This document shows, piece by piece, positions 13,021-39,865 of a DNA stretch of 44,249 nucleotides. A program made the translations under genes and the position numbers. Source of the DNA: an uncultured Oscillospiraceae bacterium (GTDB lineage Bacteria; Bacillota; Clostridia; Oscillospirales; Oscillospiraceae); NCBI GenBank assembly GCA_951801655.1, contig CATONV010000013.1, positions 1-44,249 of the forward strand. Reading direction: 5' to 3'. The notes beneath the pieces were generated by a model. It was not told where the DNA came from and ran no database searches. It saw only the letters and a list, made by a program, of their open reading frames with translations. How positions within the stretch are numbered: the first letter of the stretch is position 1; every line of letters begins with the position of its first letter.

Positions 13021-13137
13021 CGCCCCTCAAGGGCGTTGTTTTAAGAAACCCCGCAGGGGCGCATCGTATGGGCCCGCGGGCGGCTGATAGCCGCCCCTGC
13101 AAAGGTTTTCTCATCTCAACGCCCCGTCCGGGGCGGG
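13021..13137. repeat. Cluster of GC-rich hairpins and palindrome, copy D
   Basis: The gap between the ATPase and the DUF917 gene contains a short hairpin (CGCCC/GGGCG, 13021-13035, then TTGTTTT, a possible weak terminator), a larger palindrome with arms GCAGGGGCG at 13053-13061 and CGCCCCTGC at 13092-13100 enclosing the hairpin GGGCGGCT/AGCCGCCC, and a small GCCCC/GGGGC hairpin at 13121-13134. The GCAGGGGCG ends recur at 42055. Confidence 0.65.
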
Positions 13138-13168
13138 AACACAAATAAATGAAAAAAGGAGAAGCACT

Positions 13169-14266: not shown

Positions 14267-14279
14267 CAGGGAGGATGCC

Positions 14280-15545: not shown

Positions 15546-15560
15546 GGGAGGGAAACACAT

Positions 15561-18429: not shown

Positions 18430-19731
18430 TTAAATCAAACCAGCAAGCTTGGGAATCATGGTAATGGTTGCCGGGACATAGGTGCAGAAAAGCAAAACTG
18501 CAATTTCCACAATGATCATGGGCAGGACCGACTTCATCAGACGGGATACCGGGACATTGCCCATATTGGCCCCCAAAAACAGGCAGCAGCCAAAAGGCGG
18601 AGTGGCAACACCCATTGTCAAATTCAGAACAAAAATCACCGCAAAGTGAAGAGGATCCACACCAGCCTGAATGGCAATGGGGGCAAAAATGGGAGCGAAA
18701 ATCATAACGTTGGCCGTGGACTCCATCAGACAGCCCAGGATCAGACCGATGATATTGACCATCAGCAAAATCAGAATTTTGTTGTTGCCAAACGCAGACA
18801 GCCAGCCAGCCATTACCTGGGGGAAGCTGGACATGGCCAACAGCCACGAAAAGGGCTTGGCAATTGCTACAATCAGAAGAATGCCGGCGGCATTCATAAT
18901 ACCGATGCCGAAACTGCTGCGCAGCATTTCCAGGGTGACCTTGCGGTAAAAAATCAGACCCAGCAAAATAGCGTAGACACAGGCTATGGCGGCAGACTCG
19001 GTAGCGGAGAACTTCCCGGAGAAGATGCCGCCCAAAATGATAACGGGAGTCGTCAGTGCCGGAATGGTGCGCAGCGTAACCTTGGCCGCACTCTTAATCG
19101 TATATGTGTTTTCCGAACGGGGCAGCTTGTCCCTCTTGGTCACATAGTATACATATGCCATCAGGCCCAATCCCAGCAGACAGCCCGGAATTATCCCGCC
19201 TACGAACATGGCTCCGGTGGACACACCCATCATCGAGCTGTATACCACCATCAGAATGCTGGGGGGAATAATAGGACCAATTACGGACGCCGCTGCGGTA
19301 AGCGCCAGAGAGAAATCTTTTTTATAGCCCTGCTCCTCCATTTTGGGGACCAGCAATGTGCCGATAGCAGCCATATCGGCAACAGCCGAACCGGAGATGG
19401 CAGCAAAAAACACGTTCGCCAGTATGTTGACATAGCCCAGTCCGCCCCGCAGCTTGCCTAACACCACATCGCAGAAGGCCACTATGTCATCCACTATGCC
19501 GATGCGCATCATCAGCTCGCCGGCCAGCATAAACAGGGGAAGCGCCAGCAGCGTAAAGCTGTTGACTCCCTGGAAAAACTGCTGAAAAATCAACACCATG
19601 GGCACACCGCCCCAGAGATGGAGACAGACCACTGCCGACAGAGCGATACTGAATACTACCGGAAGCCCCATGAAGAGAAACAGAAACATAAGAGGAATCA
19701 TAATGATGCCTACAGTCGTCGATTCGATCAT
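18430..19731 (-). CDS. dctM: TRAP transporter large permease DctM
   Basis: The 433-residue product is the standard size for a DctM subunit and has the family's landmarks: LFMGLPVVFSIALSAVV near the start, LPLFMLAGELMMRIGI, GSAVADMAAIGTLLVPKMEEQGY, and the C-terminal NLTMGVATPPFGCCLFLGANMG. It forms the Na+-coupled membrane pore that moves an organic acid delivered by DctP. Its start overlaps the end of dctQ by four bases, so they are coupled. It is the last gene of the - strand operon. Confidence 0.95.
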   Translation of the reverse strand: MIESTTVGIIMIPLMFLFLFMGLPVVFSIALSAVVCLHLWGGVPMVLIFQQFFQGVNSFTLLALPLFMLAGELMMRIGIVDDIVAFCDVVLGKLRGGLGYVNILANVFFAAISGSAVADMAAIGTLLVPKMEEQGYKKDFSLALTAAASVIGPIIPPSILMVVYSSMMGVSTGAMFVGGIIPGCLLGLGLMAYVYYVTKRDKLPRSENTYTIKSAAKVTLRTIPALTTPVIILGGIFSGKFSATESAAIACVYAILLGLIFYRKVTLEMLRSSFGIGIMNAAGILLIVAIAKPFSWLLAMSSFPQVMAGWLSAFGNNKILILLMVNIIGLILGCLMESTANVMIFAPIFAPIAIQAGVDPLHFAVIFVLNLTMGVATPPFGCCLFLGANMGNVPVSRLMKSVLPMIIVEIAVLLFCTYVPATITMIPKLAGLI

Positions 19732-20279
19732 TCTGCCACATCCCCCTTCTGCACGTCAGCGCCTGTCATGGCAGCTGTATCAAGTTCAAACACGGCACAC
19801 AAGCGATAAATAAATTTTTCAACGGTAAACAGCAGCATCAGCGCGCCGCCTATTTCCATCCCCACAAGAGGAACCGCCTGGTTGGTAGGCATGGTCAGCG
19901 CCCGGTAACCCATATAGGTAAAAATGGAGGAGTAGCCTTCCCGAAGAAAGACCAGCAAAAAAATGCCGCACAGGAACAGAATCACACAATCTGCCACCGC
20001 TCTGGCCTTTTTGCCTAACCGGTCTACCAAAATATCCAAAGTGACCAGATCTCCCCTGCGGAGCATCACAGCCCCTCCGATGAAGGCGGAGTCAACCAGA
20101 CACCAGCGCGAGAACTCGTCGGTCCAGATAAAACCGCCATTTAGAAACAGCCGCACATATACCCCCAGGGTAATGGCGCACAGCATTGCCACCAGCATGA
20201 GAATCGCTGCGAACAGAGCGATTTTTTCAAACATATCCGCAACCCGGTGGATGACCTTGATGCATTTTCCCACATTCAA
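19728..20279 (-). CDS. dctQ: TRAP transporter small permease DctQ
   Basis: This 183-residue protein has four hydrophobic segments and the DctQ core pattern (GVYVRLFLNGGFIWTDEFSRWCLVDSAFIGGAVMLRRGD). It scaffolds DctM in the membrane. It starts 132 bases after dctP, with AAGGAG before the ATG, and a hairpin occupies that gap. The overlap with dctM supports a single transport complex. Confidence 0.93.
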   Translation of the reverse strand: MNVGKCIKVIHRVADMFEKIALFAAILMLVAMLCAITLGVYVRLFLNGGFIWTDEFSRWCLVDSAFIGGAVMLRRGDLVTLDILVDRLGKKARAVADCVILFLCGIFLLVFLREGYSSIFTYMGYRALTMPTNQAVPLVGMEIGGALMLLFTVEKFIYRLCAVFELDTAAMTGADVQKGDVAE

Positions 20280-20334
20280 ACTCCTTTCTGTCTTGACTGG
20301 AATCCAAGCCGTATTGACACGGCCAAAGACAAGA

Positions 20335-20365
20335 ACTGCCCCCGCCCCGCAAGGGCGGGGGCAGT
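20335..20365 (-). terminator. Intercistronic hairpin between dctP and dctQ
   Basis: ACTGCCCCCGCC at 20335-20346 pairs perfectly with GGCGGGGGCAGT at 20354-20365 around a seven-base loop. On the - strand it is followed by TCTTGTCTTT, a weak T-run. It probably reduces read-through into dctQM so that the binding protein is made in excess. Confidence 0.72.
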
Positions 20366-20411
20366 GTGAATCACCCGGCGCAAAATTGGCCCAGAAGCGT
20401 TCCGCTTCGTG

Positions 20412-21488
20412 TTAGCCCTTTGCAACCTCTTTCACATGATCCAGGAACTCCTGGCTTACCAGACTGCCCACAAACTGATCCCAGACACTGGCGGAAGCCT
20501 CATTCCACTGGGCCAGCTGCTCATCGTTCAGGTCAATGATCGTCTTGCCGGCGGCGGTGATGGTATCGCGGTATTGATCATACAGATCACCCCAGAGGCC
20601 CACCTTGTACTCCTCAGCCTGACGGGCACAATCCGCCACAGTTTTGAACAGTTCAGAGTCCAGTCCGCCCAGCTTTTGAATGGCGGCAGGGCCAATCATC
20701 TTAGTGGAAAACACCCAGCTCTGATAGTTGTAGGTGAAGTAACCAGTACATTCCTCCAGCTTACTGGTGGTCACGTAGGCAGGCTGAAGGTAATAGCCGT
20801 CGATCATATTCTGCTGCATGGCACTGTACAGCTCAGAGAAAGCCACCGGAGTGGAACCCGCTTCCCAGGCGGTGAACAGGGCCATTTCCACCTCAGAACC
20901 GGTACTGCGCAGCTTTGTGCCGGCCAGATCAGAGGGGACGTATACCGGGGTATTGGAGCAGACGCAGCGAGGCTCGCCGCCATCAATATCCAGCATCAGC
21001 GGATAGCAGCCGATGTCGTTATACATTGTCTCCACAATGGTATCTCGAATATCACTGTTTAATACATTGCGGCACTCCTCAAGACTGTTGAAAAGACCGG
21101 GCAATTCAGTCCACGCCAGTGCGCTGGAGAAACCGGCCAGGTTGCCGGAAGAACATTTTGCAATGTCCACTGTCCCGGAGATGCAGGCCTGCGTAATGTC
21201 TATATCTGAACCCAGAGTCCCGCTGCCATACCACTGAATCTCCACCTGGCCGTTGGTGGCCTCCTGGACCAGTTCATTAAACTTAGCAGCGCCCAGACCG
21301 TCCACGTCGTTGTCGTTGACTGTATCCGCGTAGCGCAGTACAATCTTGTCGGCAGGGGCAGGAGAGGGAGTTCCGCTTCCAGAGGTGTTGGAGGGGGTAC
21401 TGCCGCTTCCAGAGGGGGCGCAGGCCGCAAGGGAGACTCCCATCGCCAGAGTGCAGGCAAGAGCAACCAGTTTTTCCATTTTTTTCAT
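20412..21488 (-). CDS. dctP: TRAP transporter substrate-binding lipoprotein DctP
   Basis: This 358-residue binding protein has a lipoprotein signal (VSLAACAP, Cys near residue 23) and a Ser/Pro/Gly linker. The family-7 fold is visible from VLRYADTVNDNDVDGLGAAKFNELVQEAT onward; the carboxylate-binding Arg is expected in DLAGTKLRSTGSEVEMAL, and ELYSAMQQNMIDGYYLQP is the usual specificity helix. TRAP binding proteins take organic acids such as C4-dicarboxylates, sugar acids, keto acids or taurine-like sulfonates. AGGAAGGAG precedes the start. The cargo should match the enzymes of the upstream operon. Confidence 0.93.
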   Translation of the reverse strand: MKKMEKLVALACTLAMGVSLAACAPSGSGSTPSNTSGSGTPSPAPADKIVLRYADTVNDNDVDGLGAAKFNELVQEATNGQVEIQWYGSGTLGSDIDITQACISGTVDIAKCSSGNLAGFSSALAWTELPGLFNSLEECRNVLNSDIRDTIVETMYNDIGCYPLMLDIDGGEPRCVCSNTPVYVPSDLAGTKLRSTGSEVEMALFTAWEAGSTPVAFSELYSAMQQNMIDGYYLQPAYVTTSKLEECTGYFTYNYQSWVFSTKMIGPAAIQKLGGLDSELFKTVADCARQAEEYKVGLWGDLYDQYRDTITAAGKTIIDLNDEQLAQWNEASASVWDQFVGSLVSQEFLDHVKEVAKG

Positions 21489-21570
21489 GTTTATTCTCCT
21501 TCCTATGTTTAGGCACTTTTTTTATTTCTTGGAGGTTCCGGTTGATGAAATCCCGTTCTCCAACGTTCTC

Positions 21571-22806
21571 TTAAGGTTTTTCTATACTCTCTGCGCTGGC
21601 AAAACAGAAATTGGGGTCGCTGCGATCAATATTGTAGACAGCCCGGATGCCTTCTTCCACCTCTAATGCGCAGGGGGCACAGCCTTCGCAGATCAGATGA
21701 ACCTTGTCCGCCTTATCCGCTTCTTGGCTGGTCTTATTGTAAAGAGTCCTGGTGCATCTGCCAATAAAACACATATTCTTGAAGACGACATCTTCCGGCA
21801 GCGTTGTGCCAACACATACCTGAAGATCTTTAAACTTGGGAAGATCACCAATGGCATTCATCCGCCCCAAAGCAATCATCAGCGTGGAAATACAGCCGCA
21901 GCAAGCATTTTCTGTATAAATCTCTACTCCGGGGAATTCCTTAATGTCAGAAGTGGCAGGCCGGAACGGACGGCGTATCTCAGCAATATCATCGCCCAGC
22001 AGCTCGATGTCCTTAAGATCACAACTGCCCAGCCCCATCTCCACGGCGCAGCACAGGTGCTTTACATCTTCCAAGGGCATTTCCATGATGTTCAGCGCGA
22101 CACCATCTACGGCCAATGTGTTTTCGCCAGCCATAATGATGCCCAGAGGGACAGGGGTTCCTTCCGCCGGGCCCAGGCCCTCCTGCGCGACCAGTCCATC
22201 CACAATGGTCAGCACCGGAGGCATGACGCACAGCATATCGGCAATGGCCTGGTGAAGCAGAATTTTATGAAACCGGCGTTTTTCATTGGGGGCGATCGCT
22301 CCCTTCAGGTTCTTACTTGCACAGGTCGCGTTGGTCATCGCATGCGTCTTGATGACGGGAAGATTAATCACCAGATCCACGTCGTACATGGTCTGAGCCA
22401 CCTTGACTTTGTCAATCTCACGAAAACGCGGGTCCGACTTCTCCACCATACGGTCCAGGTTCAGGTCGATGGTTTTCACATTGAGTCGGTCTGCCATAGC
22501 CTTTACACCGGTCTCTTCAAAGATCCGGGTGGTGCCAATGTGGGCAGTACCGCAGCCATCTCCGATTGTGATGTCCGTCACTCCCATCTCTTGAAGCAGC
22601 AGGACCACAGCTTCCTGCACCTCCAGAGAGGTTACCGCACCGCTGCCCGGGACCAAGAGGCCGGTATAGTTGGGTTTCAGCAGTACCCGCTGTCCGGGCT
22701 GAACAAACTTTTTCAACCCGCCGATCAGGTCCACCGCTTTGCGGACCGTCTCCTGGACTGTCATCTCTCTCTGCCGGACAACGGAAACTTGGTATTTCTT
22801 TTCCAT
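21571..22806 (-). CDS. DUF362 family protein, Cys-rich
   Basis: This 411-residue cytoplasmic protein carries the DUF362 domain: PGQRVLLKPNYTG near residue 38-50, a central VINLPVIKTHAMTNATCASKNLKGAIAP and TIVDGLVAQEGLGPAEGTPVPLG. DUF362 proteins have no agreed reaction. The C-terminal third is Cys-rich (NACCGCIST, NMCFIGRC, LICEGCAPCALEVEEG) and could bind a metal or iron-sulfur cluster, but the spacing is not a classic ferredoxin pattern. It is the first gene after its own promoter at 22953-22981 and is followed by the TRAP genes after 82 bp, so it is tied to the imported compound, perhaps as its first enzyme. The start at 22806 has AAGGAAT upstream. Confidence 0.82.
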   Translation of the reverse strand: MEKKYQVSVVRQREMTVQETVRKAVDLIGGLKKFVQPGQRVLLKPNYTGLLVPGSGAVTSLEVQEAVVLLLQEMGVTDITIGDGCGTAHIGTTRIFEETGVKAMADRLNVKTIDLNLDRMVEKSDPRFREIDKVKVAQTMYDVDLVINLPVIKTHAMTNATCASKNLKGAIAPNEKRRFHKILLHQAIADMLCVMPPVLTIVDGLVAQEGLGPAEGTPVPLGIIMAGENTLAVDGVALNIMEMPLEDVKHLCCAVEMGLGSCDLKDIELLGDDIAEIRRPFRPATSDIKEFPGVEIYTENACCGCISTLMIALGRMNAIGDLPKFKDLQVCVGTTLPEDVVFKNMCFIGRCTRTLYNKTSQEADKADKVHLICEGCAPCALEVEEGIRAVYNIDRSDPNFCFASAESIEKP

Positions 22807-22952
22807 GGCTGTATTCCTTTCTGAAAATTAGCGCGGCAGAAACTCAAACTCTGAAATATATGGGAGAAACCGCAAATTCTGCTTTCTCATCTCTGCCCGC
22901 TTGCTTTTGTGCCATTTTAACCAAATCAACTTCTGGAATAGCGGCTGACTTC

Positions 22953-22981
22953 ATTATATTACCGATTGTTCTTCTAGTAAA
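22953..22981 (-). promoter_or_regulatory. Promoter of the DUF362-TRAP transcript
   Basis: On the - strand TTTACT (22976-22981) and a perfect TATAAT (22953-22958) are separated by 17 bases. The expected start is about 140 bases before the DUF362 gene. The -35 hexamer and spacing are identical to the promoter before the lactonase-like gene at 31.5 kb. Confidence 0.72.
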
Positions 22982-23010
22982 GCACTTGTTTTTAAAGATA
23001 TAGTTAATCT

Positions 23011-23031
23011 TTCACTTATGCAATAATTGAA
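23011..23031. promoter_or_regulatory. Candidate LysR operator, site B
   Basis: TTCACTTAT and ATAATTGAA form a nine-base inverted repeat with one mismatch around a three-base centre, centred 40 bases upstream of the -35 box of the DUF362-TRAP promoter. It shares the TTCA...TGAA ends and near-equal length (21 vs 22) with the site at 31518-31539. Binding is inferred. Confidence 0.5.
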
Positions 23032-23072
23032 ATCGGAACAGCAAAAGGCCGCCGCTTTGAAAAGAGGATATC

Positions 23073-24281
23073 TCACTTCATATGGGCAATAATCGCATCA
23101 AAGAATTCTTCCGAGTTTACCGCACGAACACTTACCTTCGGGTCGGCCAGATTGGCCAGATCCTTGGTCATGATCCCGTCGTTAATTGTTTGCAGGCAGG
23201 CATGTTCCAGCCGCGCAGCAAAACCGGAAAGCGCCTCATTTTTGTCCAGCTCTCCTCTGCGGCGCAGCGCCCCGGTCCACGCGAAAATGGTGGCAATCGG
23301 ATTGGTGGAAGTTTTTTCTCCCTTTTGCCAGCGGTAGTAATGCTGCGTCACCGTACCGTGAGAGGCTTCAAACTCCATGGTGCCGTCAGTGGAAACCAGC
23401 ACAGAGGTCATCATGGCCAGAGAACCGAAGGCGGTAGAGACCAGGTCGCTCATCACATCGCCGTCGTAGTTCTTCAGGGCCCAAATGAAGCCCCCCTCAC
23501 TGCGGACGCAGCGCGCAATGGCATCATCAATCAGTGTATAAAAGTATTTTAGGCCCAGCTGTTCGAATTTAGTTCGGAAATTTTTCTCATACTCCTCCTC
23601 AAATATCCTGCGAAATTGCCCGTCGTATACCTTGGCAATGGTATCCTTGGTAGAAAACCAGAGATCCTGCTTCATATTGAGGGCATACGTAAAGCAGGCC
23701 TGGGCAAACTCTCGAATGCTGTCATCCAGGTTGTGCTCCGCAGCCCAAATGGCAGGTCCGTTGGTCGTTTTGACTACAACAGATTGTTCCTGGCCGGAGA
23801 CTGCGCGAAATGTCATCGTGCAAGTGCCCGGCTCCTGGGAATGAAACCCCACGCTTTCGTAAACATCCCCGTAGGCGTGGCGCGCCACCGTGATCGGCTT
23901 CTTCCAAAAACGAATGGCAGGCTTAATGACATCCGTTAAAATCGGAGTGCGGAACACTGTGCCGCCAATGATGGAGCGAATGGTCACATTGGGGCTTTTC
24001 CACATCTGTGTCAGCTGAGGGAATTCCTCCATCCGCTGTTTATTGGGCGTGATCGTGGCGCATTTAACAGCAACACCATATTTCTTTGCAGCCATTGCGG
24101 AATCCACCGTGATTTGATCAGCGGTAGCATTTCGATTGAGTAAGGACAGATCATAATACTCAGTTTTTAAATCCACATAGGGCGCAAGAAGCTTCTCCTT
24201 GATCATGTCCCATAGCACATGGGTCATCTCGTCGCCGTCCATCTCTACAATAGGCATTGTCATTTGAATCTTTTCCATCAT
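23073..24281 (-). CDS. Isocitrate dehydrogenase-family enzyme (type II), substituted active site
   Basis: This 402-residue protein aligns with the homodimeric type II isocitrate dehydrogenases. Kept residues include Ser96, Asn98 and Arg102 of the SPN..IR loop, Arg111, Arg134, Tyr141, Lys212 and the metal Asp273/275/279 cluster (NYDGDVMSD). Two positions at the substrate pocket differ from the usual type II sequence: the Gly of SPNGT is Val99, and the His of RHAHGD is Tyr137. In the NADP 2'-phosphate loop HGTVTRH the Arg is Gln313, so NADP preference is doubtful. It would oxidise and decarboxylate isocitrate, or a related hydroxy-tricarboxylate, to a 2-oxo acid. It lies 6 bp after the aconitase-like gene. 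A GTGAGGGA site precedes the start. Confidence 0.88.
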   Translation of the reverse strand: MMEKIQMTMPIVEMDGDEMTHVLWDMIKEKLLAPYVDLKTEYYDLSLLNRNATADQITVDSAMAAKKYGVAVKCATITPNKQRMEEFPQLTQMWKSPNVTIRSIIGGTVFRTPILTDVIKPAIRFWKKPITVARHAYGDVYESVGFHSQEPGTCTMTFRAVSGQEQSVVVKTTNGPAIWAAEHNLDDSIREFAQACFTYALNMKQDLWFSTKDTIAKVYDGQFRRIFEEEYEKNFRTKFEQLGLKYFYTLIDDAIARCVRSEGGFIWALKNYDGDVMSDLVSTAFGSLAMMTSVLVSTDGTMEFEASHGTVTQHYYRWQKGEKTSTNPIATIFAWTGALRRRGELDKNEALSGFAARLEHACLQTINDGIMTKDLANLADPKVSVRAVNSEEFFDAIIAHMK

Positions 24282-24287
24282 AATCCC

Positions 24288-26585
24288 TCACTGTTCCCGA
24301 CAGGCGGCGTAGTAATTCATAAGACAGCCTGCCAAAATGATTTGCTTTTCCCTCGGCGTCAGTCCCTTAATATAAAGCATCAGCTCTTCCGTTGCGCCAT
24401 CCTTTCGAATCACCTTGGAGGGAATGGCCTCCTGGCCCTGTTGGATGGCGGTACGGATATTGGGTACAAAAATGCAGTCTCCAGGTTCATATACAAATGC
24501 AATATTCTGCTCCAGCGTAAAGGGCAGGATGCCCCAGTTAATACAGTTGCTCCGGTAACGCTTTGTGGCATACTCATAGCAAATATTTCCCAGTCCACCC
24601 AGCACCTTTTGGCAGGACGCGGCCTGTTCCCGGGCAGAACCGTCCCCCGGTTTATTGGCAAACACGCAGGAGCCAAATTGGGTATGGCCAAGAAGCGAGT
24701 CAGCGTCCCCTGCAGCGTTCAAAACATGGGCCAGCTGCTCGGGTACCGCCCCGCCGCGACGCGCCTCCTCCAGCTTCATGACGGCCTTCGCCCTCCCCAC
24801 ATATTCGGGAACCCGTCGAGACAGTGCAAATTCAGACAATCGGATGGGATTGGACCGGTAAGATGAGGTCTCCCCGGAGGGAATCAACTCATCCGTGGTA
24901 GTAACCGGGTCATGTATGACTGCCGCCAGTTCCAACAGAATATGTTCCGCCAGAGGGTGGATTTCAGGCCAGTCAGTAATATTGGGGCCCATGATCAGTT
25001 CCACAGAGGGGTCCGCCTGTCCAAACCCGCAGTACAGCCGATTATCATAGGATGTTCTGTCAAAATGGTAGGAGTGGCGTTGATAGTCGTATGCCAAATC
25101 AGTGGCGGCGGTAATTTTACCGCCGTTGACCGCTGTAGCAGCGATAGACCGTGCATCCATCAGGCAAACGCCTGCAAACTGCCCTTCGCCAGGTTTAGAC
25201 CCTTCGCGATTGGGGAAATTGCGGGTGGTGTGCCGCAACGACAGGCCATTGTTGGCCGGAACATCCCCCGCGCCAAAGCAGGGGCCGCAAAAGCTGGGCT
25301 TTAAGATTGCGCCGGCAGCCAGCAGATCGGCAGCCGCGCCGATGCGCGTCAGCTCCAGAGACACAGGGACAGAGGTGGGATAGACAGACAGCGCAAACCT
25401 CTGGTTCCCTACGCTTGCCCCGCGGAGAATCTGAGCCGCCTCATCGATGTTGTCAAACAGTCCGCCTGAACAGCCGGCAATGATCCCCTGATCGGCCCAG
25501 ACAGAATCATCATGGATTTTATCCTGAAGATGGATGTCAGCCTTGGGAAAACGCTGCCGCCCGTCAGCTTCCACCTTGGCCAAAAGCTCTTGCGCCCTCT
25601 CCTGGAATTCATGAATGGTGTACACATTGGAGGGATGGAAGGGAAGCGCAATCATGGCCTCTATCTTATCCAGCTCAACATGTACCATACGGTCATAATA
25701 GGCGACACTGCCGGGATGAAGCGGTGCGTAATCCTGTGGGCGCTGGTGGGTCGCGTAAAAACTCTCTGTTTCTTCGTCTGTCTCCCAGATGGAGGATAGA
25801 CAGGTTGTCTCAGTCGTCATAACGTCAATTCCATTGCGGAAGTCTATCGGCAGCGCGCTAATGCCGGGTCCGACAAACTCCAATACTCGGTTGTTCACAA
25901 AACCAGAGGCAAATGTGGCGCGAATCAGCGCCAAAGCAACATCCTGGGGTCCAATTCCTCTTTTCGGACTGCCTGTCAGGTATACCAAGACCACTTCAGG
26001 CGGCTTTACATCCCAGGTGTTTTTCAGCAGCTGCTTTACCAACTCAGGTCCGCCCTCTCCAACCGCCATTGTCCCAAGCGCGCCATAGCGGGTGTGCGAA
26101 TCAGAACCCAAAATCATTGCGCCGCATTTTGCCATCTCCTCACGAGCATAGGAGTGGATGACACTCTGATTGGCAGGCACGTATATCCCGCCATATTTTT
26201 TCGCCGCTGACAGACCAAATAAATGGTCATCCTCATTGATCGTGCCTCCAACCGCACACAAGCTGTTATGACAGTTCGTCAGTGCGTAAGGGATCGGAAA
26301 TTCCTTCAGGCCGGAGGCCCTGGCCTGCTGGATGATCCCCACATAGGTGATATCGTGGGAAACCATGGCATCAAACCTGATCCGCAGCTGCTCAGGGTCA
26401 GAGGATACATTGTGCGCCTGCAAAATACGATAGGCCATTGTATTCTGCCGCGCCTGTTCCCCAGGGACAGCAGCCCTGTCACAGGGGATGCCGTCCACCA
26501 AAAAAACGCCTTTGTCTTTGCATGTAACCACGGGCTCATCTCCTTCCATTCTTCGCTGGATATAGAAGGGCGGCGCGGGCCGCAT
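24288..26585 (-). CDS. Aconitase-family hydratase, YbhJ-like
   Basis: This 765-residue enzyme has the complete aconitase fold: a substrate strand SDSHTRYG (residues 161-168), cluster ligand Cys372 in AGCSGGLFDN, Cys433 and Cys436 in SFCGPCFGAGD, and the swivel-domain GDGSAREQAA with the catalytic Ser/Arg. It therefore should bind a 4Fe-4S cluster and dehydrate/rehydrate a hydroxy-tricarboxylate. The sequence looks closer to the uncharacterised YbhJ-type hydratases than to AcnA or AcnB. It is followed by the isocitrate-dehydrogenase-like gene after 6 bp, so the two should work in sequence. No citrate synthase is present. The start is uncertain: neither Met1 nor Met13 (MEGDEP) has a good ribosome site, and it may depend on translation of the preceding gene. 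Confidence 0.88.
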   Translation of the reverse strand: MRPAPPFYIQRRMEGDEPVVTCKDKGVFLVDGIPCDRAAVPGEQARQNTMAYRILQAHNVSSDPEQLRIRFDAMVSHDITYVGIIQQARASGLKEFPIPYALTNCHNSLCAVGGTINEDDHLFGLSAAKKYGGIYVPANQSVIHSYAREEMAKCGAMILGSDSHTRYGALGTMAVGEGGPELVKQLLKNTWDVKPPEVVLVYLTGSPKRGIGPQDVALALIRATFASGFVNNRVLEFVGPGISALPIDFRNGIDVMTTETTCLSSIWETDEETESFYATHQRPQDYAPLHPGSVAYYDRMVHVELDKIEAMIALPFHPSNVYTIHEFQERAQELLAKVEADGRQRFPKADIHLQDKIHDDSVWADQGIIAGCSGGLFDNIDEAAQILRGASVGNQRFALSVYPTSVPVSLELTRIGAAADLLAAGAILKPSFCGPCFGAGDVPANNGLSLRHTTRNFPNREGSKPGEGQFAGVCLMDARSIAATAVNGGKITAATDLAYDYQRHSYHFDRTSYDNRLYCGFGQADPSVELIMGPNITDWPEIHPLAEHILLELAAVIHDPVTTTDELIPSGETSSYRSNPIRLSEFALSRRVPEYVGRAKAVMKLEEARRGGAVPEQLAHVLNAAGDADSLLGHTQFGSCVFANKPGDGSAREQAASCQKVLGGLGNICYEYATKRYRSNCINWGILPFTLEQNIAFVYEPGDCIFVPNIRTAIQQGQEAIPSKVIRKDGATEELMLYIKGLTPREKQIILAGCLMNYYAACREQ

Positions 26586-26615
26586 CGCTGCGTGACCCGC
26601 ACCGCCGCAAATTGG

Positions 26616-28052
26616 TCAGGGTTGAATTGAAATTCGGCGGATATCGTAATACTCCTCCAGGGACCACTTTCCCCGGTCGCAGCCAAGTCCGCTCTGCTTA
26701 ATCCCGATATGAGGCATGTTGGGACCGGCCCCCGGTTGATTGACCTGGAGTTCGCCCACCTCAACCTCCTCCACGCACCGGCCTATGACCCGGGAGTCGT
26801 GGGTAAACAGATATCCGGTCAGGCCCAGCTCGGTCTTGTTCGCCCTCTCAATCACCTCATCCAACGTTTTGAACGTCAGCACAGCATAGATGGGGCCAAA
26901 AATCTCCTGCTGTGTAATGGACATTTCATCCGTTACGCCATCCAAAACAGCGGGAACAAAGAACGCTCCATTTTTCAGAGACTCCGGCAGCTGGGGGATC
27001 CCTCCACCATAGAGAAGCTTCGCTCCCTCGCCCCGGGCCTGCTCCACCAGGGAAATCATACGGTCTCGGGTTTTCACATTGATCATGGGGCCCATGGCGT
27101 CAGGCATATCGTCGCTCCAGCCCACTTGGATTTTTTCCACGTAGGACAAAAGCTTCTCTACAAACGCCTCGTGGATGGACTCATGGACAAAGATACGGTT
27201 AATATTTGCACAGCCTTGACCACTAATTCGGATTTTACGGTCCGCCACATATCTCGCTGTCTCCTCCAGGTCGCAGTCCGGCATAACAATACAAGGTGCA
27301 TTCCCACCCAGCTCCATGGAGAATCGCTTGATCGAGGTAGCGGCGTTCTGCATAACCTCCACGCCCACAGCGGAGGAACCGATTACAGCCACCATGGCGG
27401 GTATTTTGCTCTGGCTCAGATGATTGCCAATCACGCTGGCTTTGCCGGTTACCAGGTTGACTACACCGGCGGGAAGCCCGATCTTCTCGCACAGCTCACC
27501 AATTTTTAAGCTGGCCAATGGAGTCTCGGTGCTGGGCTTCAGTACGCAGGTACAGCCTGACGCCATAGCAGGGCACAGCTTCAGGCCCACATTGCTCAGA
27601 GGCATATTCCAGGCCAGATGTCCCAGAACAACGCCCACCGGCCGCTTGAGGACCACATGGAAATTTCCCCGGCGACCGCCGTACTCCGGAATATCCGTGC
27701 CATAGACTCGTTTGGCCTCTTCAGCATAGTAACCGAAGTAGCTGATAAAGGCGTTAAAGTCGTTTCCCGCTTCCTTATAGGACTTGCCGCCCTCTTTGGC
27801 CATCAGATCAATAATAGCTGTTTTTTCTGCAAGACAGGCATCCTTCAGCTTCATCATCCAGCCGATGCGCTCGTTCAGACTCAGACGGGACCACGAAGGA
27901 AACGCCGCCTGTGCAGCCTCCAATGCCCGATCCGCCTGCTCAATAGAAGCAGTGGAAATGGTCTCCAGCAGTTCGCCGGTGGCGGGACAAGTGACGTCCA
28001 GCTTGTCCCCTGCCCCCGTTTCACACGTTCCGTTAATATAAAGTTTATACAT
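26616..28052 (-). CDS. NAD(P)-dependent aldehyde dehydrogenase
   Basis: This 478-residue member of the large ALDH superfamily has the oxyanion Asn149 in LAWNMP (usually PWNFP), Lys172 of the cofactor site (VLKPSTETP), the general base Glu247 (MELGGNAP) and the nucleophile Cys281 (SGQGCANINR). It oxidises an aldehyde to a carboxylate. It most resembles succinate-semialdehyde/lactaldehyde-type enzymes, but the altered AWNMP and QGC contexts make substrate prediction unsafe. AGGAGGAGGC precedes ATG 28052. It lies between the Fe-dependent alcohol dehydrogenase and the hydratase, fitting an alcohol-aldehyde-acid sequence. Confidence 0.92.
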   Translation of the reverse strand: MYKLYINGTCETGAGDKLDVTCPATGELLETISTASIEQADRALEAAQAAFPSWSRLSLNERIGWMMKLKDACLAEKTAIIDLMAKEGGKSYKEAGNDFNAFISYFGYYAEEAKRVYGTDIPEYGGRRGNFHVVLKRPVGVVLGHLAWNMPLSNVGLKLCPAMASGCTCVLKPSTETPLASLKIGELCEKIGLPAGVVNLVTGKASVIGNHLSQSKIPAMVAVIGSSAVGVEVMQNAATSIKRFSMELGGNAPCIVMPDCDLEETARYVADRKIRISGQGCANINRIFVHESIHEAFVEKLLSYVEKIQVGWSDDMPDAMGPMINVKTRDRMISLVEQARGEGAKLLYGGGIPQLPESLKNGAFFVPAVLDGVTDEMSITQQEIFGPIYAVLTFKTLDEVIERANKTELGLTGYLFTHDSRVIGRCVEEVEVGELQVNQPGAGPNMPHIGIKQSGLGCDRGKWSLEEYYDIRRISIQP

Positions 28053-28146
28053 AACTTCAAGCCTCCTCCTTGATCGCTTTCGCTATAGGGCAGCAGAGAG
28101 TCCCTTTCGCAGTCGACAAACGGGCACCCTCTGCTCCGGATTTGGA

Positions 28147-29334
28147 TCAATAAGCGTTCTTGTAAATGTTGACCAGATCTTTCACTGTCCCCTTGCAGGG
28201 ATTCAAGAAGAACGGCTTGCCCTGGATGCAGTCCTCCGCCATCTGTTCAAACTTTGCGGGGTCGACCTTGGCATCCTTCAGACTGCGGGGCAGACCGGTA
28301 TCGGCACACATCTCGGCAATGGCCTCACATGCGGCCTTGGCCGCCTGGATATCCGTCATATTGCGGGTGTCCACTCCCATAATTTCCGCCACCTTGGCAA
28401 ACTTTGCAGGATTGGCTCGCCAAGTGTATTTTACCACATGGGGAAGCATAAGGGCATTTGCGGTACCGTGTGAGATGTGGAAATGGGCGCTGAGAGGCTT
28501 GGCCAAACCGTGGACAATACCAAGCGCGGCCTGAGACAGACACATACCGCCCAGGGTGGCGCCGATCAGCATGGCCTGACCGGCCTCCGTGTTGCCCGGA
28601 TTGGCTACAAACTGGCGGATATGCTCAGAAATCAGCCGCATCCCCTCCAACGCCATAAAATCGCTGAAGGCCCAGGCCCCATTGGTGGAAATATACGCCT
28701 CAAAGCAATGGGTGAACGCGTCAATGCCGCAGCCGGCCGCCACAGGTCCCGGGACAGTGGCCATCATCTTGGCGTCCAGAATAGAAAACACCGGAACATA
28801 GAAGGGACTCTGCGCCCGAACCTTTTTCACGTTGTCGGTATCATTGATGGCAATGTTCCAGCTGGACTCGCTGCCAGTGCCGGCGGTAGTCGGAATGGCA
28901 AAACAAGGCGCCGGGGTGTTCTTATACCGGTTTACACCGGTGTAATCCCCTTTGTAGTCCAGGATGTGGGTACCCGGATTGGCAATCAAAATCGAGGCAG
29001 CCTTGGCGGAGTCCATAGAACTGCCGCCGCCTACGCCCAGAACACACGTGGCCTGCTCCCGCAGACCAAGCTCGCCAATGCTGTCCATCAGGTGCGCAGA
29101 GGGGTCAGCCTCAATTTTGTCAAAGACCACGTAGTCCAAACCCGCGTCTTTCAAAGACTGGGTAACGGTGTCAAGCACGCCAAGCTTAACCAAAATCTCC
29201 TCCGTGACTACCAGGACCTTGCCGCAGCCGCGCTTCTTAATCTCTTCGCCGATGGTGGCTGCCAAGCCTACGCCGCAGTTTAGTCTGCCCTGGTTGTGAA
29301 AATGGCCGGGATTTGTGTTCAACATAGAAAACAC
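28147..29334 (-). CDS. Iron-containing alcohol dehydrogenase
   Basis: This 395-residue enzyme belongs to the group III Fe-ADH family. The dinucleotide site GVGGGSSMDSAKAA (about residues 99-112) is followed by metal ligands in GCGIDAFTHCFEAY (Asp and His) and in GIVHGLAKPLSAHFHISHGTANALMLPH, here given in two adjoining parts around residues 265-292. These enzymes interconvert alcohols and aldehydes such as 1,3-propanediol, lactaldehyde, 4-hydroxybutyrate or sulfoacetaldehyde. Its place beside an aldehyde dehydrogenase suggests the two oxidise an alcohol to an acid. AAAGGAG precedes the ATG. A 94-bp gap with a weak hairpin separates it from the aldehyde dehydrogenase. Confidence 0.92.
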   Translation of the reverse strand: MFSMLNTNPGHFHNQGRLNCGVGLAATIGEEIKKRGCGKVLVVTEEILVKLGVLDTVTQSLKDAGLDYVVFDKIEADPSAHLMDSIGELGLREQATCVLGVGGGSSMDSAKAASILIANPGTHILDYKGDYTGVNRYKNTPAPCFAIPTTAGTGSESSWNIAINDTDNVKKVRAQSPFYVPVFSILDAKMMATVPGPVAAGCGIDAFTHCFEAYISTNGAWAFSDFMALEGMRLISEHIRQFVANPGNTEAGQAMLIGATLGGMCLSQAALGIVHGLAKPLSAHFHISHGTANALMLPHVVKYTWRANPAKFAKVAEIMGVDTRNMTDIQAAKAACEAIAEMCADTGLPRSLKDAKVDPAKFEQMAEDCIQGKPFFLNPCKGTVKDLVNIYKNAY

Positions 29335-29368
29335 TCCTTTTCGTAATATTGACTTGTTGACAGGTAAC

Positions 29369-30529
29369 CTATTTTACACGGGTAGCTTCGATGACATCCT
29401 CGTTGATCTCCAGGCCAAAGCCGGGCTTATCCTGCATGGTGATCATGCCCGTCTCAGCATCAAAGTCCATAGGCAGAGGCGTCAGGTCCCAACGCAGGGG
29501 ATTGCGCTGATCCTTGGCCCAGTCTGCCTGCATGTGCTCGAACATATAGCAGTCTGTAAACGCAGCGGCGATATGTAGCGTGGAGGCCAGGCACACGGCG
29601 GAACAACTGCCCGTATGGGTAAGGTATTTGACGTTATAGGCATTGGCAAGACCATGGATCTTCAGGGCCTCGGTAACACCGCCGCAGCGGCAAATATTGG
29701 GCTGAATAATATCAATTTTGCCCTGGGTAATCAGCTCTTTCGCGCCCCAACGCAGGAAGTGGGCCTCGCCGCCGGCAATGGGTACACTCAGGTTCTCGGA
29801 CAGCTGGCGATAACCGTCATAGTCGTCGGGCCTGACGGGCTCTTCAAACCAGCGGACATTACACTCCTCCAATACCTTCCCCACCCGAAGGGCCGTCTTC
29901 ACATCATACCCGCAGTTGGCGTCTGAAGTGAGTTCAATATCGTCGCCCACCACCTCGCGTACAGCGCGTACGGTCGCCATATCGTTTTCAGGAACCTGGC
30001 CAATTTTGATTTTCATGGAACGGAATCCGGCGTCCTTGAACTTTTTGGCAGTCTCCTTAACAACCTCCAGCCCACGGAACCGGATCGAGGAGGCATACGC
30101 CAAGAAGGACGGCCGGCCAGAGGCCCCCAGCAGCTTATAGACCGGAACATTCAGGGCCTTGCCTTTGATATCCCACAGGGCGCAGTCAATGCCAGAAATC
30201 GCCTCAATGTAGAAGCCCTGGTAGTGGCCCCGGTTCATCATAGCACCAAACATCAGCTCCCAGATTTTTTCCGTATCAAAGGGATCCTTTCCAATCAGCA
30301 GAGGAGAGATGTAGTTGACAATATCCCGAGTAGCGGTGGGGGAAAACCGAACCATGCACTCCCCCCAACCAGTTATGCCCTCATCAGTCTCCACCTTAAC
30401 CAGGGTAGCCCGGTATTCTTTAAATACCAGATGCTCCAGTTCGCTGGCGTAGGGGATACTGATTGGCGCCTTAATGGGATTTTTGATCTCCTCTACACAG
30501 GTTATTGCTTCTACTTTGGTGATTTTCAT
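29369..30529 (-). CDS. Mandelate racemase/muconate-lactonizing (enolase superfamily) acid dehydratase or racemase
   Basis: This 386-residue enzyme has the two enolase-superfamily domains. Active-site positions match mandelate racemase with a constant offset of eight: K-x-K at Lys173/Lys175, metal ligands Asp203, Glu229 and Glu255, and a His at 305. The Asp that pairs with this His in mandelate racemase (D270) is Asn278 here (IIQPNICRCGG). The enzyme should abstract a proton next to a carboxylate, leading to dehydration, epimerisation or beta-elimination. The missing dyad Asp argues that Lys175 rather than His is the main base. AAGGAGGAG precedes the ATG. It follows the lactonase-like gene, as expected for lactone opening then acid dehydration. 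Confidence 0.88.
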   Translation of the reverse strand: MKITKVEAITCVEEIKNPIKAPISIPYASELEHLVFKEYRATLVKVETDEGITGWGECMVRFSPTATRDIVNYISPLLIGKDPFDTEKIWELMFGAMMNRGHYQGFYIEAISGIDCALWDIKGKALNVPVYKLLGASGRPSFLAYASSIRFRGLEVVKETAKKFKDAGFRSMKIKIGQVPENDMATVRAVREVVGDDIELTSDANCGYDVKTALRVGKVLEECNVRWFEEPVRPDDYDGYRQLSENLSVPIAGGEAHFLRWGAKELITQGKIDIIQPNICRCGGVTEALKIHGLANAYNVKYLTHTGSCSAVCLASTLHIAAAFTDCYMFEHMQADWAKDQRNPLRWDLTPLPMDFDAETGMITMQDKPGFGLEINEDVIEATRVK

Positions 30530-30587
30530 GCTGACAGCTCCTCCTTAAAATGTATAATTCATAAAAAACACTCTGAAATGCAAAGCC

Positions 30588-31343
30588 TTAGGTCGGCAGC
30601 ATATCAAATACGGCAAAATCGTGGCCAGGCAAAATTTTTGCCCCTTGTTTTTCCAAGCTTTCCAGCTTTGCAAAGGATTGGTAATAGTCATTCAGGCTGT
30701 GGCAAATACCAGCTGGAATGCGCTTTGTCCAATTTTCCATGCAATTAATCAGATCTCCAGTGATCACATAGGGTCCATTTTTCGTTTCCACTACTATCCC
30801 CTGCGAACCAGGCGAGTGACCAGGCAGGGGAATCACCCGAATGCCTTCCGTTATGGTCTTCTCTCCATCCAGCAGGCGAAGCTGGTGGTAATACTTTAAG
30901 AAATAGGGCAGTTCATCCTTGACATTCGTCTCATAGTGCTTCGCATCTGGCGGGCAGGGGTCTAACGCGTAAAAGAGCTCACTGCGCTGCACATAGACCG
31001 GAATGGCAGCAGGCAGCTCCAGAACACCTTTGGCGTGATCCCAATGCAGATGCGTAAGAATTACCATCTCCAATTCCTCAGGCCTGGTGTGACATCTGGC
31101 AAGCGCAGGGATCAAATATTGATCCGGTTCACGCTTGATCGGATTATGATGCCGGGAACTCCACTCTAAGTCACCGCTGATTCCGGCATCTACCAGGATT
31201 TTGCGCCCCGCAGCCTCATCCTGAAGTAAAAACGCCGTATGGGGAACATCAAAGCGTTCGCTGGACTCCGGTCCCTGCTTCATAATAAAGCCGCCCCGCC
31301 ATACCGTCGTAACGCCCAGACACAAAGGAGTGATTGCCCACAT
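30588..31343 (-). CDS. MBL-fold hydrolase, AHL-lactonase-like
   Basis: The 251-residue product has the metallo-beta-lactamase zinc motif LTHLHWDHAKG (HxHxDH), a further His in LPGHSPGSQG, the bridging Asp in VITGDLI and a final His in LPGHDFAVFD, the pattern of the N-acyl-homoserine-lactonase branch. It probably opens a lactone or hydrolyses an ester. I chose ATG 31343 with GGAGGACAAGCT before it; the frame is open to 31487 but lacks a site there. It is the first gene of the - strand catabolic operon, just downstream of a promoter at 31470-31498. Quorum quenching is possible, but opening of a sugar-acid or hydroxy-acid lactone fits the neighbours better. Confidence 0.87.
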   Translation of the reverse strand: MWAITPLCLGVTTVWRGGFIMKQGPESSERFDVPHTAFLLQDEAAGRKILVDAGISGDLEWSSRHHNPIKREPDQYLIPALARCHTRPEELEMVILTHLHWDHAKGVLELPAAIPVYVQRSELFYALDPCPPDAKHYETNVKDELPYFLKYYHQLRLLDGEKTITEGIRVIPLPGHSPGSQGIVVETKNGPYVITGDLINCMENWTKRIPAGICHSLNDYYQSFAKLESLEKQGAKILPGHDFAVFDMLPT

Positions 31344-31539: not shown

Positions 31540-31759
31540 AATCAGAGTAAAATAAAATATGCCATCAGCTTGCGTTTTTGTACTCCATCGTCTATTATAG
31601 AATTAACGCTATCGTATCTCTCCGATTGTAGACAATGCGCTACCAAAGGCGGGGTCTCTACATGTCCCCTGTCAGGATTGATCCCCTGCTGTTCCACTTT
31701 TTATACGTTATGACGCTGCTATCATCCGAACAAAAATCTTCATGTGGGGAGGACATGGT

Positions 31760-32683
31760 ATGACATTGCGACACCTGCGGATTTTTATTGAGGTCGTCAA
31801 CTGCGGAAAAATGAGCGAAGCCGCATCTCGCCTTTTTGTCTCCCAGTCGTCCATTAGCCAGGCGGTCTCAGAACTGGAGGAACACTATCACATCAAGCTG
31901 TTTGATCGGCTGTCCAAACGCATTTTTCTGACCTCCGCCGGGGAGGAGCTCTATGGCTTGGCCTCCAAGGTGATATTGACCTATGATGAAATGGAACGAT
32001 ATATGGAAAATATCACGGATCGTCAAGTGTTAAATGTGGGAGCAACGTTTACCATTGGCGCAACTATTTTAATGCAGTTGTTTCGTGCTTTGAGAGTTGA
32101 ATGTCCCAACGTAAGCACAAAAGCCATTGTTGACAGGACCTCGGTGCTGGAAAGGCAGCTTCTTCGGGGAGAGTTGGATGTTGCCCTGGTGGAAGGAGCG
32201 ATTAAAAGTCCGGACTTATTGGTCTGTCCGGTGATAGAGGATGAGCTGGTGCTGGTTTGCGCCCCTGGCCATCCCTTCGCCAAACGAAAGCAGGTGAGTT
32301 TGAAGGAACTGGAGGGACAGGATTTTATTATGCGTGAATCCTCCAGTAAAACCTGGAAAATCTTTGAAAGCTACTTGCTCCAAGGTAATGTGAAAGTGAC
32401 CGAGAAGTGGATCTGCAACAATCTGGAAACCATCAAAGCGGCGGTGATCGGCGGCTACGGTCTGTCGGTACTGTCCGCGCGATATATCCGCGAGGAAACC
32501 AAAAAAGGGACCATGGTGGAAATTCCCATTAAAGATGTGCATATGCTCCGGGACTTCTCGCTGGTATATCACAAAAGTAAGTATCCGTTTTCCGCTTTCC
32601 AAAAATTCATATCGCTGTGCCAGGAATATGGAAAGCACCCGGAAAGCTTTGAAGTATTACAACGTGACTCAGAGGCACAATAG
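31760..32683 (+). CDS. LysR-family transcriptional regulator
   Basis: This 307-residue regulator has the N-terminal winged helix-turn-helix (LRHLRIFIEVVNCGKMSEAASRLFVSQSSISQAVSELEEH) and a LysR substrate domain from about residue 90. The effector domain (GATFTIGATILMQLF... LERQLLRGELDVALVEG) resembles the CysL/YeiE/CbbR group. CysL and YeiE are tied to sulfite metabolism, which would fit the nearby yeiH-like and sulfite reductase genes. I chose ATG 31760, with GGGGAGGA eight bases upstream; the ATG at 31742 lies before that site. It is divergent from the catabolic operon and convergent to the yeiH-like gene, so its target could be either or both. Confidence 0.9.
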   Translation: MTLRHLRIFIEVVNCGKMSEAASRLFVSQSSISQAVSELEEHYHIKLFDRLSKRIFLTSAGEELYGLASKVILTYDEMERYMENITDRQVLNVGATFTIGATILMQLFRALRVECPNVSTKAIVDRTSVLERQLLRGELDVALVEGAIKSPDLLVCPVIEDELVLVCAPGHPFAKRKQVSLKELEGQDFIMRESSSKTWKIFESYLLQGNVKVTEKWICNNLETIKAAVIGGYGLSVLSARYIREETKKGTMVEIPIKDVHMLRDFSLVYHKSKYPFSAFQKFISLCQEYGKHPESFEVLQRDSEAQ

Positions 32684-32720
32684 GCTCGCTGCCCTTAAAA
32701 CACATTTCAATCAACAGCAG

Positions 32721-32764
32721 TCAGACCGCACCTCGGCTTCCTGTGGAAGTGAGGGGCGGTCTGA
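32721..32764. terminator. Bidirectional terminator between lysR and the yeiH-like gene
   Basis: TCAGACCGC pairs with GCGGTCTGA over a long stem that continues with CCTC/GAGG and an inner CTTCC/GGAAG hairpin, followed by TTGTTTCTC. It separates two convergent genes. Confidence 0.85.
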
Positions 32765-32844
32765 TTGTTTCTCTCGCTAACGGCCAAAGCATGATCGTTT
32801 CATTTTTCCACATGGATTTGCGCTGAGGCTGCCGGAATTGTTTT

Positions 32845-34014: not shown

Positions 34015-34058
34015 AATATCCCTCCTTAAAAAATTCCGTCAGGCATAGCTGTTCTCTG

Positions 34059-34087
34059 ATTGTAACGCACCGTTTAATTAATGTAAA
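34059..34087 (-). promoter_or_regulatory. Promoter of the yeiH-like gene
   Basis: On the - strand TTTACA (34082-34087) and TACAAT (34059-34064) are 17 bases apart, about 45 bases before the gene. Upstream, TAAT-N11-ATTA at 34101-34119 has the LysR T-N11-A form, but in such AT-rich DNA it may be chance. Confidence 0.62.
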
Positions 34088-34172
34088 TCATTATTATCTT
34101 TAATTATTCATTAGTATTATCTTATCAATCTTTCTTAATTGTTTCCTTATCGTTTTTATATGATATTTATAT

Positions 34173-34201
34173 TTTACATAATTATTAATCAGTGCTATGC
34201 T
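34173..34201 (+). promoter_or_regulatory. Candidate promoter of the persulfide/sulfite reductase genes
   Basis: TTTACA (34173-34178) and TATGCT (34196-34201) are 17 bases apart. The leader to the first gene would be about 165 bases. The rest of the 34015-34371 gap is AT-rich, with no gene or riboswitch that I recognise. Confidence 0.45.
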
Positions 34202-34371
34202 GTTAAATAGGATAAGAAGCTGCACGCACCGCCAGTAATTTCGGTCTCTTAATGAAAAACAGCCCATTTCGTGATACACACAAGTGTAAATCTCCAATAC
34301 AGGCCAAACTTGTACTACCTTTGAAACATTGGCATCAAAATGGAAAATATAACAAAAAAGGAGAGAAGACA

Positions 34372-36000: not shown

Positions 36001-36026
36001 ACTGACTATATAAGGAGAGGTTGATT

Positions 36027-39864: not shown

Positions 39865-39865
39865 C

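Follow-up and report, generated by a model that had tools for sequence, protein, structure and literature searches.

Ten consecutive genes in a window of 44,249 nucleotides (the whole stretch of DNA analysed) from an uncultured Oscillospiraceae bacterium raise the question of whether a hydratase and an isocitrate dehydrogenase (IDH) lying in their midst serve a pathway encoded by their neighbours. The gene set and order had been proposed in an initial annotation, and both hold: the ten reading frames, all open, follow one another on the minus strand, from an MBL-fold hydrolase to DctM, and every product has a Pfam match above the curated cut-off. In gene order they are:

30588..31343, minus strand: MBL-fold hydrolase, lactonase type (Lactamase_B 59.9 bits, cut-off 22.7)
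29369..30529, minus strand: enolase-superfamily protein, mandelate-racemase (MR) subgroup (MR_MLE_N and MR_MLE_C above cut-off)
28147..29334, minus strand: iron-type alcohol dehydrogenase, Fe-ADH (Fe-ADH and ADH_Fe_C above cut-off)
26616..28052, minus strand: aldehyde dehydrogenase, ALDH (Aldedh 468 bits)
24288..26585, minus strand: aconitase-family hydratase (NF008503, PRK11413 "hydratase"; 1175.7 bits, cut-off 641)
23073..24281, minus strand: NADP-dependent isocitrate dehydrogenase (NF006156 592.9 bits, cut-off 335)
21571..22806, minus strand: DUF362 protein, Cys-rich in its C-terminal part (PF04015 155.1 bits, cut-off 24)
20412..21488, minus strand: TRAP solute-binding protein DctP (PF03480 153.7 bits)
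19728..20279, minus strand: TRAP small permease DctQ (PF04290 81.9 bits)
18430..19731, minus strand: TRAP large permease DctM (PF06808 368.5 bits; TIGR00786 above cut-off)

Intergenic gaps from the MBL gene to DctQ measure 58, 34, 94, 30, 6, 266, 82 and 132 nt, placing the hydratase gene 30 nt behind that of ALDH and IDH 6 nt behind the hydratase; the DctQ and DctM genes overlap by 4 nt. The MBL ORF could begin at a TTG at 31487, and the ATG at 31343 has GGAGG just upstream. Promoter-like matches are in mild excess only (17, versus 11.3 in shuffled sequences; sd 2.7), with one (10/12) in the 266-nt gap between IDH and DUF362, so that a single transcript is plausible from MBL to IDH and unproven over the whole cluster, which the gap may split into two units.

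Judged by family score and residues, the protein at 23073..24281 is an NADP-dependent isocitrate dehydrogenase (492.4 bits with TIGR00127, cut-off 397.15; nearest solved structure 4aou); its first label, "IDH-like", had the family right and was too cautious, given the NF006156 score. All 13 substrate and metal sites, at positions taken from human IDH1, are kept, and they are identical in 72 of 72 relatives. Elsewhere the protein is diverged, differing at 13 of 191 near-invariant columns and ending a long terminal branch in the tree (1.04). Val99, beside the substrate residues Ser96, Asn98 and Arg102, replaces a Gly found in 71 of the 72 relatives (Ala in the other). A single relative among the 72 departs at more columns (16 of 196), and another is comparable (10 of 195). 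The hydratase, of a family that we take to be that of E. coli YbhJ (NF008503/PRK11413), differs at 1 of 294 such columns; its tree was a quick build, with long-branch warnings that included the cluster's row. Aligned to 1aco, and with Fe-S and catalytic positions taken from mitochondrial aconitase, it keeps the three Cys, Ser650, Asp162, His106, His144, Glu259, Arg455, Arg460 and Arg652; C372, C433, C436, S650 and others are unchanged in relatives. By eye, the alignment places His77, Cys105, Val255 or 256, Thr454 and Ala651 opposite Gln, Asp, Asn, Asn and Ser of 1aco, and these five are nearly fixed in 86 relatives too. Aconitase activity in this family is putative.

The two genes form a widespread pair that elsewhere is independent of the cluster's other genes. 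Among the best 80 of 480 hydratase relatives, a sample from which records very near the cluster's genome may be absent, 78 loci have IDH downstream in the same orientation, 66 of them within 400 nt; the two remaining loci both end at a contig edge. Over the stretches available for these 80 (5 kb on both sides in 41), none contained a lactonase-type, enolase-type, ALDH, DUF362, DctP, DctQ or DctM match. Nearby genes in the same 80 loci included those for CitE (citrate lyase beta; 14 loci), CitF (citrate lyase alpha; 11) and glutamate dehydrogenase (GDH; 13), one example of each being confirmed above cut-off. As enzymes, the hydratase and IDH are probably not new. The proposal that they act on a new tricarboxylate of the pathway is not supported, since elsewhere the pair stands without the cluster's other genes, and the residues checked in it are conserved; lack of co-conservation and a pair of ordinary citrate enzymes had been named in advance as outcomes against that proposal, and much of this is what was found. 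Three observations keep the proposal alive: the pair's position 30 nt behind the ALDH gene, its block-like composition, and an IDH diverged beyond nearly all relatives.

What the neighbouring genes encode is clear at the level of family. The MBL protein, a distant relative of AiiA/AttM, carries the HxHxDH metal motif with the H, D and H that follow further on, a pattern common to the wider MBL superfamily and so not specific for lactonase. With the best NCBIfam lactonase models, whose curated cut-offs are 375 and 390, it scores 72.2 and 70.3 bits, or 73.0 and 71.1 from the later ATG; the name "lactonase" first given is less secure than it was put. The enolase-type protein is rare, with at most 43% identity to any relative in samples of 394, 391 and 400 genomes, which overlap and each include the cluster's own genome. 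Its nearest solved structures are 4ggb, which we take to be an Agrobacterium galactarolactone cycloisomerase (Gci), and 5olc (galactonate dehydratase). From the signature of MR-subgroup acid sugar dehydratases it has the Lys, metal acids and His (K173, K175, D203, E229, E255, H305), with the His-Asp dyad broken at Asn278, where Asp stands in nine of ten distinct relatives and Glu in the tenth. It falls below every curated cut-off for a sugar-acid dehydratase of named substrate (galactonate, arabinonate and others), the best score being 231.8 versus 311 for galactonate dehydratase. The Fe-ADH (D205, H209, H275 and H289 present) is closest to the NCBIfam model for lactaldehyde reductase (301.4 bits, cut-off 523), and the ALDH (E247 and C281 present) to that for SSADH (374.6 bits, cut-off 646). 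Adjacent DctP, DctQ and DctM genes bear out the TRAP importer originally described; DctP has a lipobox Cys23 and Arg194, and its nearest solved relative is the isethionate-binding DctP 8t9t (3.1e-27). The DUF362 protein contains 16 Cys, has no solved relative at E 1, and gave one match among plasmid sequences.

The description of the set as new, and the suggestion to look for a conserved neighbourhood, led to the same outcome: the full gene set recurred in none of the best 80 of 480 hydratase loci and in none of seven enolase-type neighbourhoods in Clostridia genomes, which are samples only. Misses in the DNA search weigh little, because four candidates were scored per genome. TRAP genes adjoin the enolase-type relative in two of the seven neighbourhoods (L102, L128) and gave no match in the other five, and matches to the MBL, ADH and ALDH proteins were absent from all seven. 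Partial likenesses occur on plasmids: in Paracoccus an ALDH (36% identical to the cluster's) adjoins an enolase-type relative, and on a Caballeronia plasmid a span of 19 kb holds relatives of the MBL (35%) and enolase-type (30%) proteins, a dihydroxy-acid-dehydratase-type protein and an Fe-ADH (25%). Known systems are likewise matched in part. The BlcABC/AttKLM gamma-butyrolactone operon unites an MBL lactonase, an Fe-ADH and an SSADH-like ALDH, with AttM ranking second among the NCBIfam models for the cluster's MBL protein and SSADH first for its ALDH; here, however, all scores fall below cut-off and an enolase-type protein, hydratase, IDH and TRAP genes are added. Non-phosphorylative sugar-acid routes with an aldolase employ a lactonase, a dehydratase, the aldolase and lactaldehyde or glycolaldehyde enzymes. 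The cluster resembles these in its lactonase type, MR-subgroup type, FucO-like ADH and ALDH, but has no aldolase among its ten genes, as originally noted. With the hydratase-IDH pairs in records of Oscillospiraceae and other Clostridia it shares the two families, their order and the close spacing described above, whereas here the pair follows an ALDH, has a TRAP set downstream and includes a more diverged IDH. The oxidative hexuronate route (Udh, Gli, Gci, KdgD), as described in PMC6353982, comprises a cycloisomerase, a dehydratase and an alpha-KGSA dehydrogenase. The cluster has in common with it chemistry on lactones, a step of enolase-superfamily type and an ALDH ending at 2-oxoglutarate, but lacks uronate dehydrogenase and KdgD, adds Fe-ADH, hydratase, IDH and DUF362, and has Asn in the His-Asp dyad.

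The account we prefer, tentatively and with slightly less than even confidence, is that of an acquired catabolic cluster for a lactone-forming hydroxy or sugar acid, in which the pair forms the common citrate/isocitrate/2-oxoglutarate link. DctPQM would import the acid and the MBL-fold enzyme would open its lactone form. The enolase-superfamily enzyme would remove the proton next to the carboxylate, most likely eliminating water to give a 2-keto-3-deoxy acid; epimerisation is possible as well, because Asn has taken the place of the Asp that is normally the partner of the catalytic His. Fe-ADH and ALDH would then oxidise an alcohol or aldehyde at the end of the chain to a carboxylate, yielding a keto-dicarboxylate, for example 2-oxoglutarate or 4-hydroxy-2-oxoglutarate. 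The DUF362 protein is given no part in this account. The hydratase and IDH, as that common link and not as special pathway enzymes, might run from citrate to 2-oxoglutarate, or the other way, with the citrate then giving acetate and oxaloacetate. As first stated for the cluster, no citrate synthase was recognised, and this extends to the genome as assembled (89.13% complete), which has no PF00285 match. Its three PF00682 matches are a 2-isopropylmalate synthase and an HMG-CoA lyase, both above cut-off, and a carboxylase/decarboxylase alpha protein above the PRK09282 cut-off and just below that of oadA (726.7 versus 756.5). Relatives of citrate lyase alpha and beta are present; with no recognised citrate synthase, the pair may thus link 2-oxoglutarate and citrate. 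A bolder version, which we consider unlikely, has an anaerobe lacking citrate synthase oxidise the acid to 2-oxoglutarate, run IDH and aconitase in reverse (reductive carboxylation) to make citrate, and release acetate and oxaloacetate by citrate lyase; the pair would have been captured into the operon for such disposal, and the faster divergence of IDH (Gly99 to Val) would reflect tuning to the reverse direction or a related substrate. Against the preferred account stand the lack of a sugar oxidase, second dehydratase or aldolase in the cluster and the failure of the MBL and enolase-type proteins to pass any NCBIfam function cut-off. The mostly different company of enolase-type relatives in the seven neighbourhoods, Asn278, the diverged IDH, the 266-nt gap and the lack of a second genome with the cluster among the samples point the same way.

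The pair's solitary occurrence elsewhere, the promoter-like match in the 266-nt gap and the different neighbours of enolase-type relatives would also fit two or three unrelated units lying side by side (MBL to ALDH; hydratase-IDH; DUF362-DctPQM with its own promoter) and sharing no substrate. Spacings of 30 nt (ALDH to hydratase) and 6 nt (hydratase to IDH) on one strand, and a GC3 that varies little over the ten genes (0.54-0.68), argue otherwise, and we regard this as somewhat unlikely, if the most serious competitor. Retuning of the hydratase and IDH to a tricarboxylate from the cluster's pathway, the view first taken, draws on the unrecognised citrate synthase and on the IDH's long branch and changed columns, including that near its substrate residues; the nearly unchanged hydratase, the IDH sites identical throughout, and two other comparably divergent IDHs make it improbable. 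As a main reading it was set behind after the column test.

The cluster, its pair included, shares the composition of a low-GC block that is probably acquired DNA, to judge from sharp composition changes at ~18.2 kb and ~42.4 kb, the right edge being a tRNA-Arg gene. Those changes might instead reflect chimeric assembly of the metagenome (150 contigs, 4.11% contamination), and no copy of the tRNA end was found at the left edge and no integrase among 19 block proteins scanned. TRNA genes are, however, frequent edges of islands, and GC3 on both flanks resembles the rest of the genome (compared over rows taken as coding; antisense ORFs gave 0.61-0.66), which leaves an artefact very improbable. 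Scarcely more probable is a sulfonate pathway, in which an organosulfonate imported by TRAP would be oxidised by ADH and ALDH and the released sulfite handled by adjoining YeiH-like, sulfite-reductase-like and siroheme genes (32845-42016). The isethionate-binding relative of DctP and an Fe-ADH score of 221 bits with SarD favour it, but that score falls far short of its cut-off (700) and is lower than the one for lactaldehyde reductase, no desulfonating enzyme was recognised among the 19 proteins, and in a congener (G804, L151) relatives of the LysR, YeiH, sulfite-reductase-like and CoA-disulfide-reductase-like proteins lie together without the cluster. In five other YeiH neighbourhoods, a LysR at 30-32% identity adjoins YeiH in three (L153, L154, L156) and none does in L155 or in L152, which gave a partial sulfite-reductase match; a CoA-disulfide-reductase match is absent from all five. 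The LysR gene at 31742-32683 (best NCBIfam model YeiE, 190.2 bits, cut-off 480) is a candidate regulator of the cluster.

The assembly of genes is unusual in any case, an uncommon organic-acid import and oxidation set with a common citrate-cycle-type pair in its middle. Were the cluster merely a set of acquired neighbours, it would represent ordinary accessory metabolism. If the pair ends the route, the organism would ferment a sugar acid by way of citrate while having no recognised citrate synthase. Independently of the cluster's role, the regularity with which IDH accompanies the NF008503 "hydratase" suggests aconitase as the function of this family in these bacteria.

The cluster consists of ten minus-strand genes extending from an MBL-fold hydrolase (MBL) at 31343 to DctM at 18430, and all ten give a Pfam family match above cut-off, bearing out the gene content and order set down in the initial annotation for an undescribed catabolic operon. 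The window is contig C13 of an assembly comprising 2,535,007 bases in 150 contigs (completeness 89.13%, contamination 4.11%). No account of such a gene set, or of a hydratase-IDH pair in Oscillibacter, was found in the literature covered (preprints and most subscription journals lay outside this scope). A strong hairpin at 20335-20365, between dctP and dctQ (14 pairs, 11 of them G-C), could perhaps keep the binding protein in excess. Elsewhere in the window, 7605-16589 encodes a separate set for uptake and hydrolysis, in which a peptide-type ABC transporter precedes S-Me-THD-like and M20 proteins.

Interrogation of one-genome-per-species contigs with the hydratase (24288..26585; family NF008503) returned relatives encoded on 480 stretches. 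Among the best 80 of the 480, which were kept, record titles are mostly Oscillospiraceae, Oscillibacter and other Clostridia, and an IDH gene lies downstream on the same strand in 78, less than 400 nt away in 66 loci (median gap 34 nt) and at 539 to 4380 nt in 12; in the remaining two the sequence runs out 167 and 2 bases after the hydratase gene. Matches to MBL, the enolase-superfamily protein (ENO), ALDH, DUF362, DctP, DctQ or DctM (E 1e-8, at least 40% of query length) occurred in none of these 80 loci, only 41 of which extend 5 kb on both sides, so that the genes may still be linked over longer distances; one Fe-ADH (27%) and two LysR (29%) did match. Other neighbours comprised the citrate lyase subunits CitE (14 loci) and CitF (11) and glutamate dehydrogenase (13), one example of each being confirmed above cut-off, and two congeners as well have citrate lyase genes close to the hydratase. 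Since the pair recurs without the other cluster genes, in some loci near citrate lyase or glutamate dehydrogenase, hydratase and IDH exist independently of the cluster, and the simplest view is that they connect citrate, isocitrate and 2-oxoglutarate as one unit. The proposed pathway, in which these enzymes might act on a tricarboxylate-like intermediate instead of citrate, was too strongly stated for the pair and is a possible scheme for the other enzymes.

Columns were counted as near-invariant when at least 97% of relatives share one residue. Of 294 such columns (86 relatives), the window hydratase deviates at one. Compared with mitochondrial aconitase, its Fe-S cysteines are conserved, and so are most residues used in catalysis; in our reading of the alignment it differs from 1aco at five positions. 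As these five are nearly fixed throughout the hydratase group, the window protein, judged by sequence, is ordinary for its own family. We infer aconitase activity for the family from structure and pairing with IDH; the pairing in 78 of the best 80 loci suggests this role for NF008503, which NCBIfam names merely "hydratase". A congener genome, G805, encodes a second, very divergent hydratase (about 51% identical to the window's, 70 of 299 near-invariant columns changed) besides another copy.

The window IDH (23073..24281) deviates at 13 of 191 near-invariant columns (72 relatives). A leave-one-out comparison of the relatives gave a median of 0 changed columns, with 16 of 196 in L085 and 10 of 195 in L134. 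In the IDH tree the window sequence has an end branch of 1.04 within a supported five-row set, the other rows of which derive from Oscillibacter or Oscillospiraceae records. Thirteen substrate and metal sites, presumably equivalent to those of human IDH1, are identical between the window and 72 of 72 relatives; beside them, Gly99 (71 Gly and one Ala among the 72) is Val in the window.

The stated absence of citrate synthase holds genome-wide, at 89.13% completeness: there is no PF00285 match, and the three PF00682 proteins are a 2-isopropylmalate synthase, an HMG-CoA lyase and a carboxylase/decarboxylase alpha subunit, so that neither citrate synthase type is recognised. Elsewhere in the genome the families of the pair are represented only by one Iso_dh protein (contig C64) and LeuC-like proteins (C36, C12). 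Because the genome encodes a citrate lyase alpha subunit with an adjoining CitE relative, and the window a decarboxylase beta subunit (42643-43851), citrate made from 2-oxoglutarate, a putative direction, could be cleaved in this organism.

By composition, 18200-42463 is an island, a low-GC block of about 24 kb bounded by a tRNA-Arg gene. Besides the cluster it holds the following:

31742-42016: sulfite/sulfur genes, namely a YeiE-type LysR, YeiH-like exporter, CoA-disulfide-reductase-like and sulfite-reductase-like proteins, siroheme genes and an Fe/B12-type ABC set

The LysR gene, divergent to the cluster, may belong to these genes, since congener G804 has relatives of the LysR, YeiH-like, CoA-disulfide-reductase-like and sulfite-reductase-like genes together without the cluster and, in Salmonella, YeiE controls its neighbour yeiH as a protection against sulfite (PMC12880088).

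In 2-kb steps, GC is 0.47-0.55 at 18-42 kb (with a local peak of about 0.6 at 41 kb), 0.56-0.63 leftward and 0.58 at 42-44 kb. GC3 is 0.49-0.68 in 15 block genes and 0.78-0.88 in the genes used from outside the block, whether from the window or from other contigs; the exception is the LeuC-like locus on C12 (0.68, 0.69). The tRNA-Arg gene forms the right edge, its 3' end facing the block; neither a repeat of that end nor, among the 19 block proteins scanned, an integrase was found. The hydratase occurs in eight of 64 genus genomes, the window's included, at identities of at most 60%, and the congeners' copies fall outside the supported group containing the window's; beyond the genus, identity reaches 77% (best 80 of 480 stretches). 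We infer that the block was acquired, the pair included, and this slightly favours a functional tie between the pair and the genes around it.

ENO (29369..30529; nearest solved structures 4ggb, 5olc and 3bjs) retains Lys173, Lys175, Asp203, Glu229, Glu255 and His305, and Asn278 replaces the Asp of the His-Asp dyad (nine Asp and one Glu among 10 distinct relatives). At E 1e-60 it was matched in one of 394 genomes of the order (the window's own) and two of 391 of the class (its own and one at 43%), and at E 1e-50 in seven of 400 of the family, the six others at 35-37%. Matches to MBL, ADH, ALDH, hydratase and IDH are absent from all seven neighbourhoods of ENO relatives that were read (L102, L123-L128); TRAP genes occur in two of them and a DUF362 match (28%) in one. 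Plasmid records with ENO relatives number 577, every one below 60% identity, and those with MBL relatives six, all Caballeronia at about 35%. Three plasmid stretches were read: the ENO relative adjoins a sugar-type ABC transporter in Chelatococcus and an ALDH in Paracoccus, and the Caballeronia stretch, reached via MBL, combines MBL (35%), ENO-type (30%), Fe-ADH (25%) and dihydroxy-acid-dehydratase-type proteins. These neighbours point to sugar- or hydroxy-acid use, as a putative substrate class only. Most likely the window carries a cluster for hydroxy- or sugar-acid use that was acquired and that encloses a common hydratase-IDH pair.
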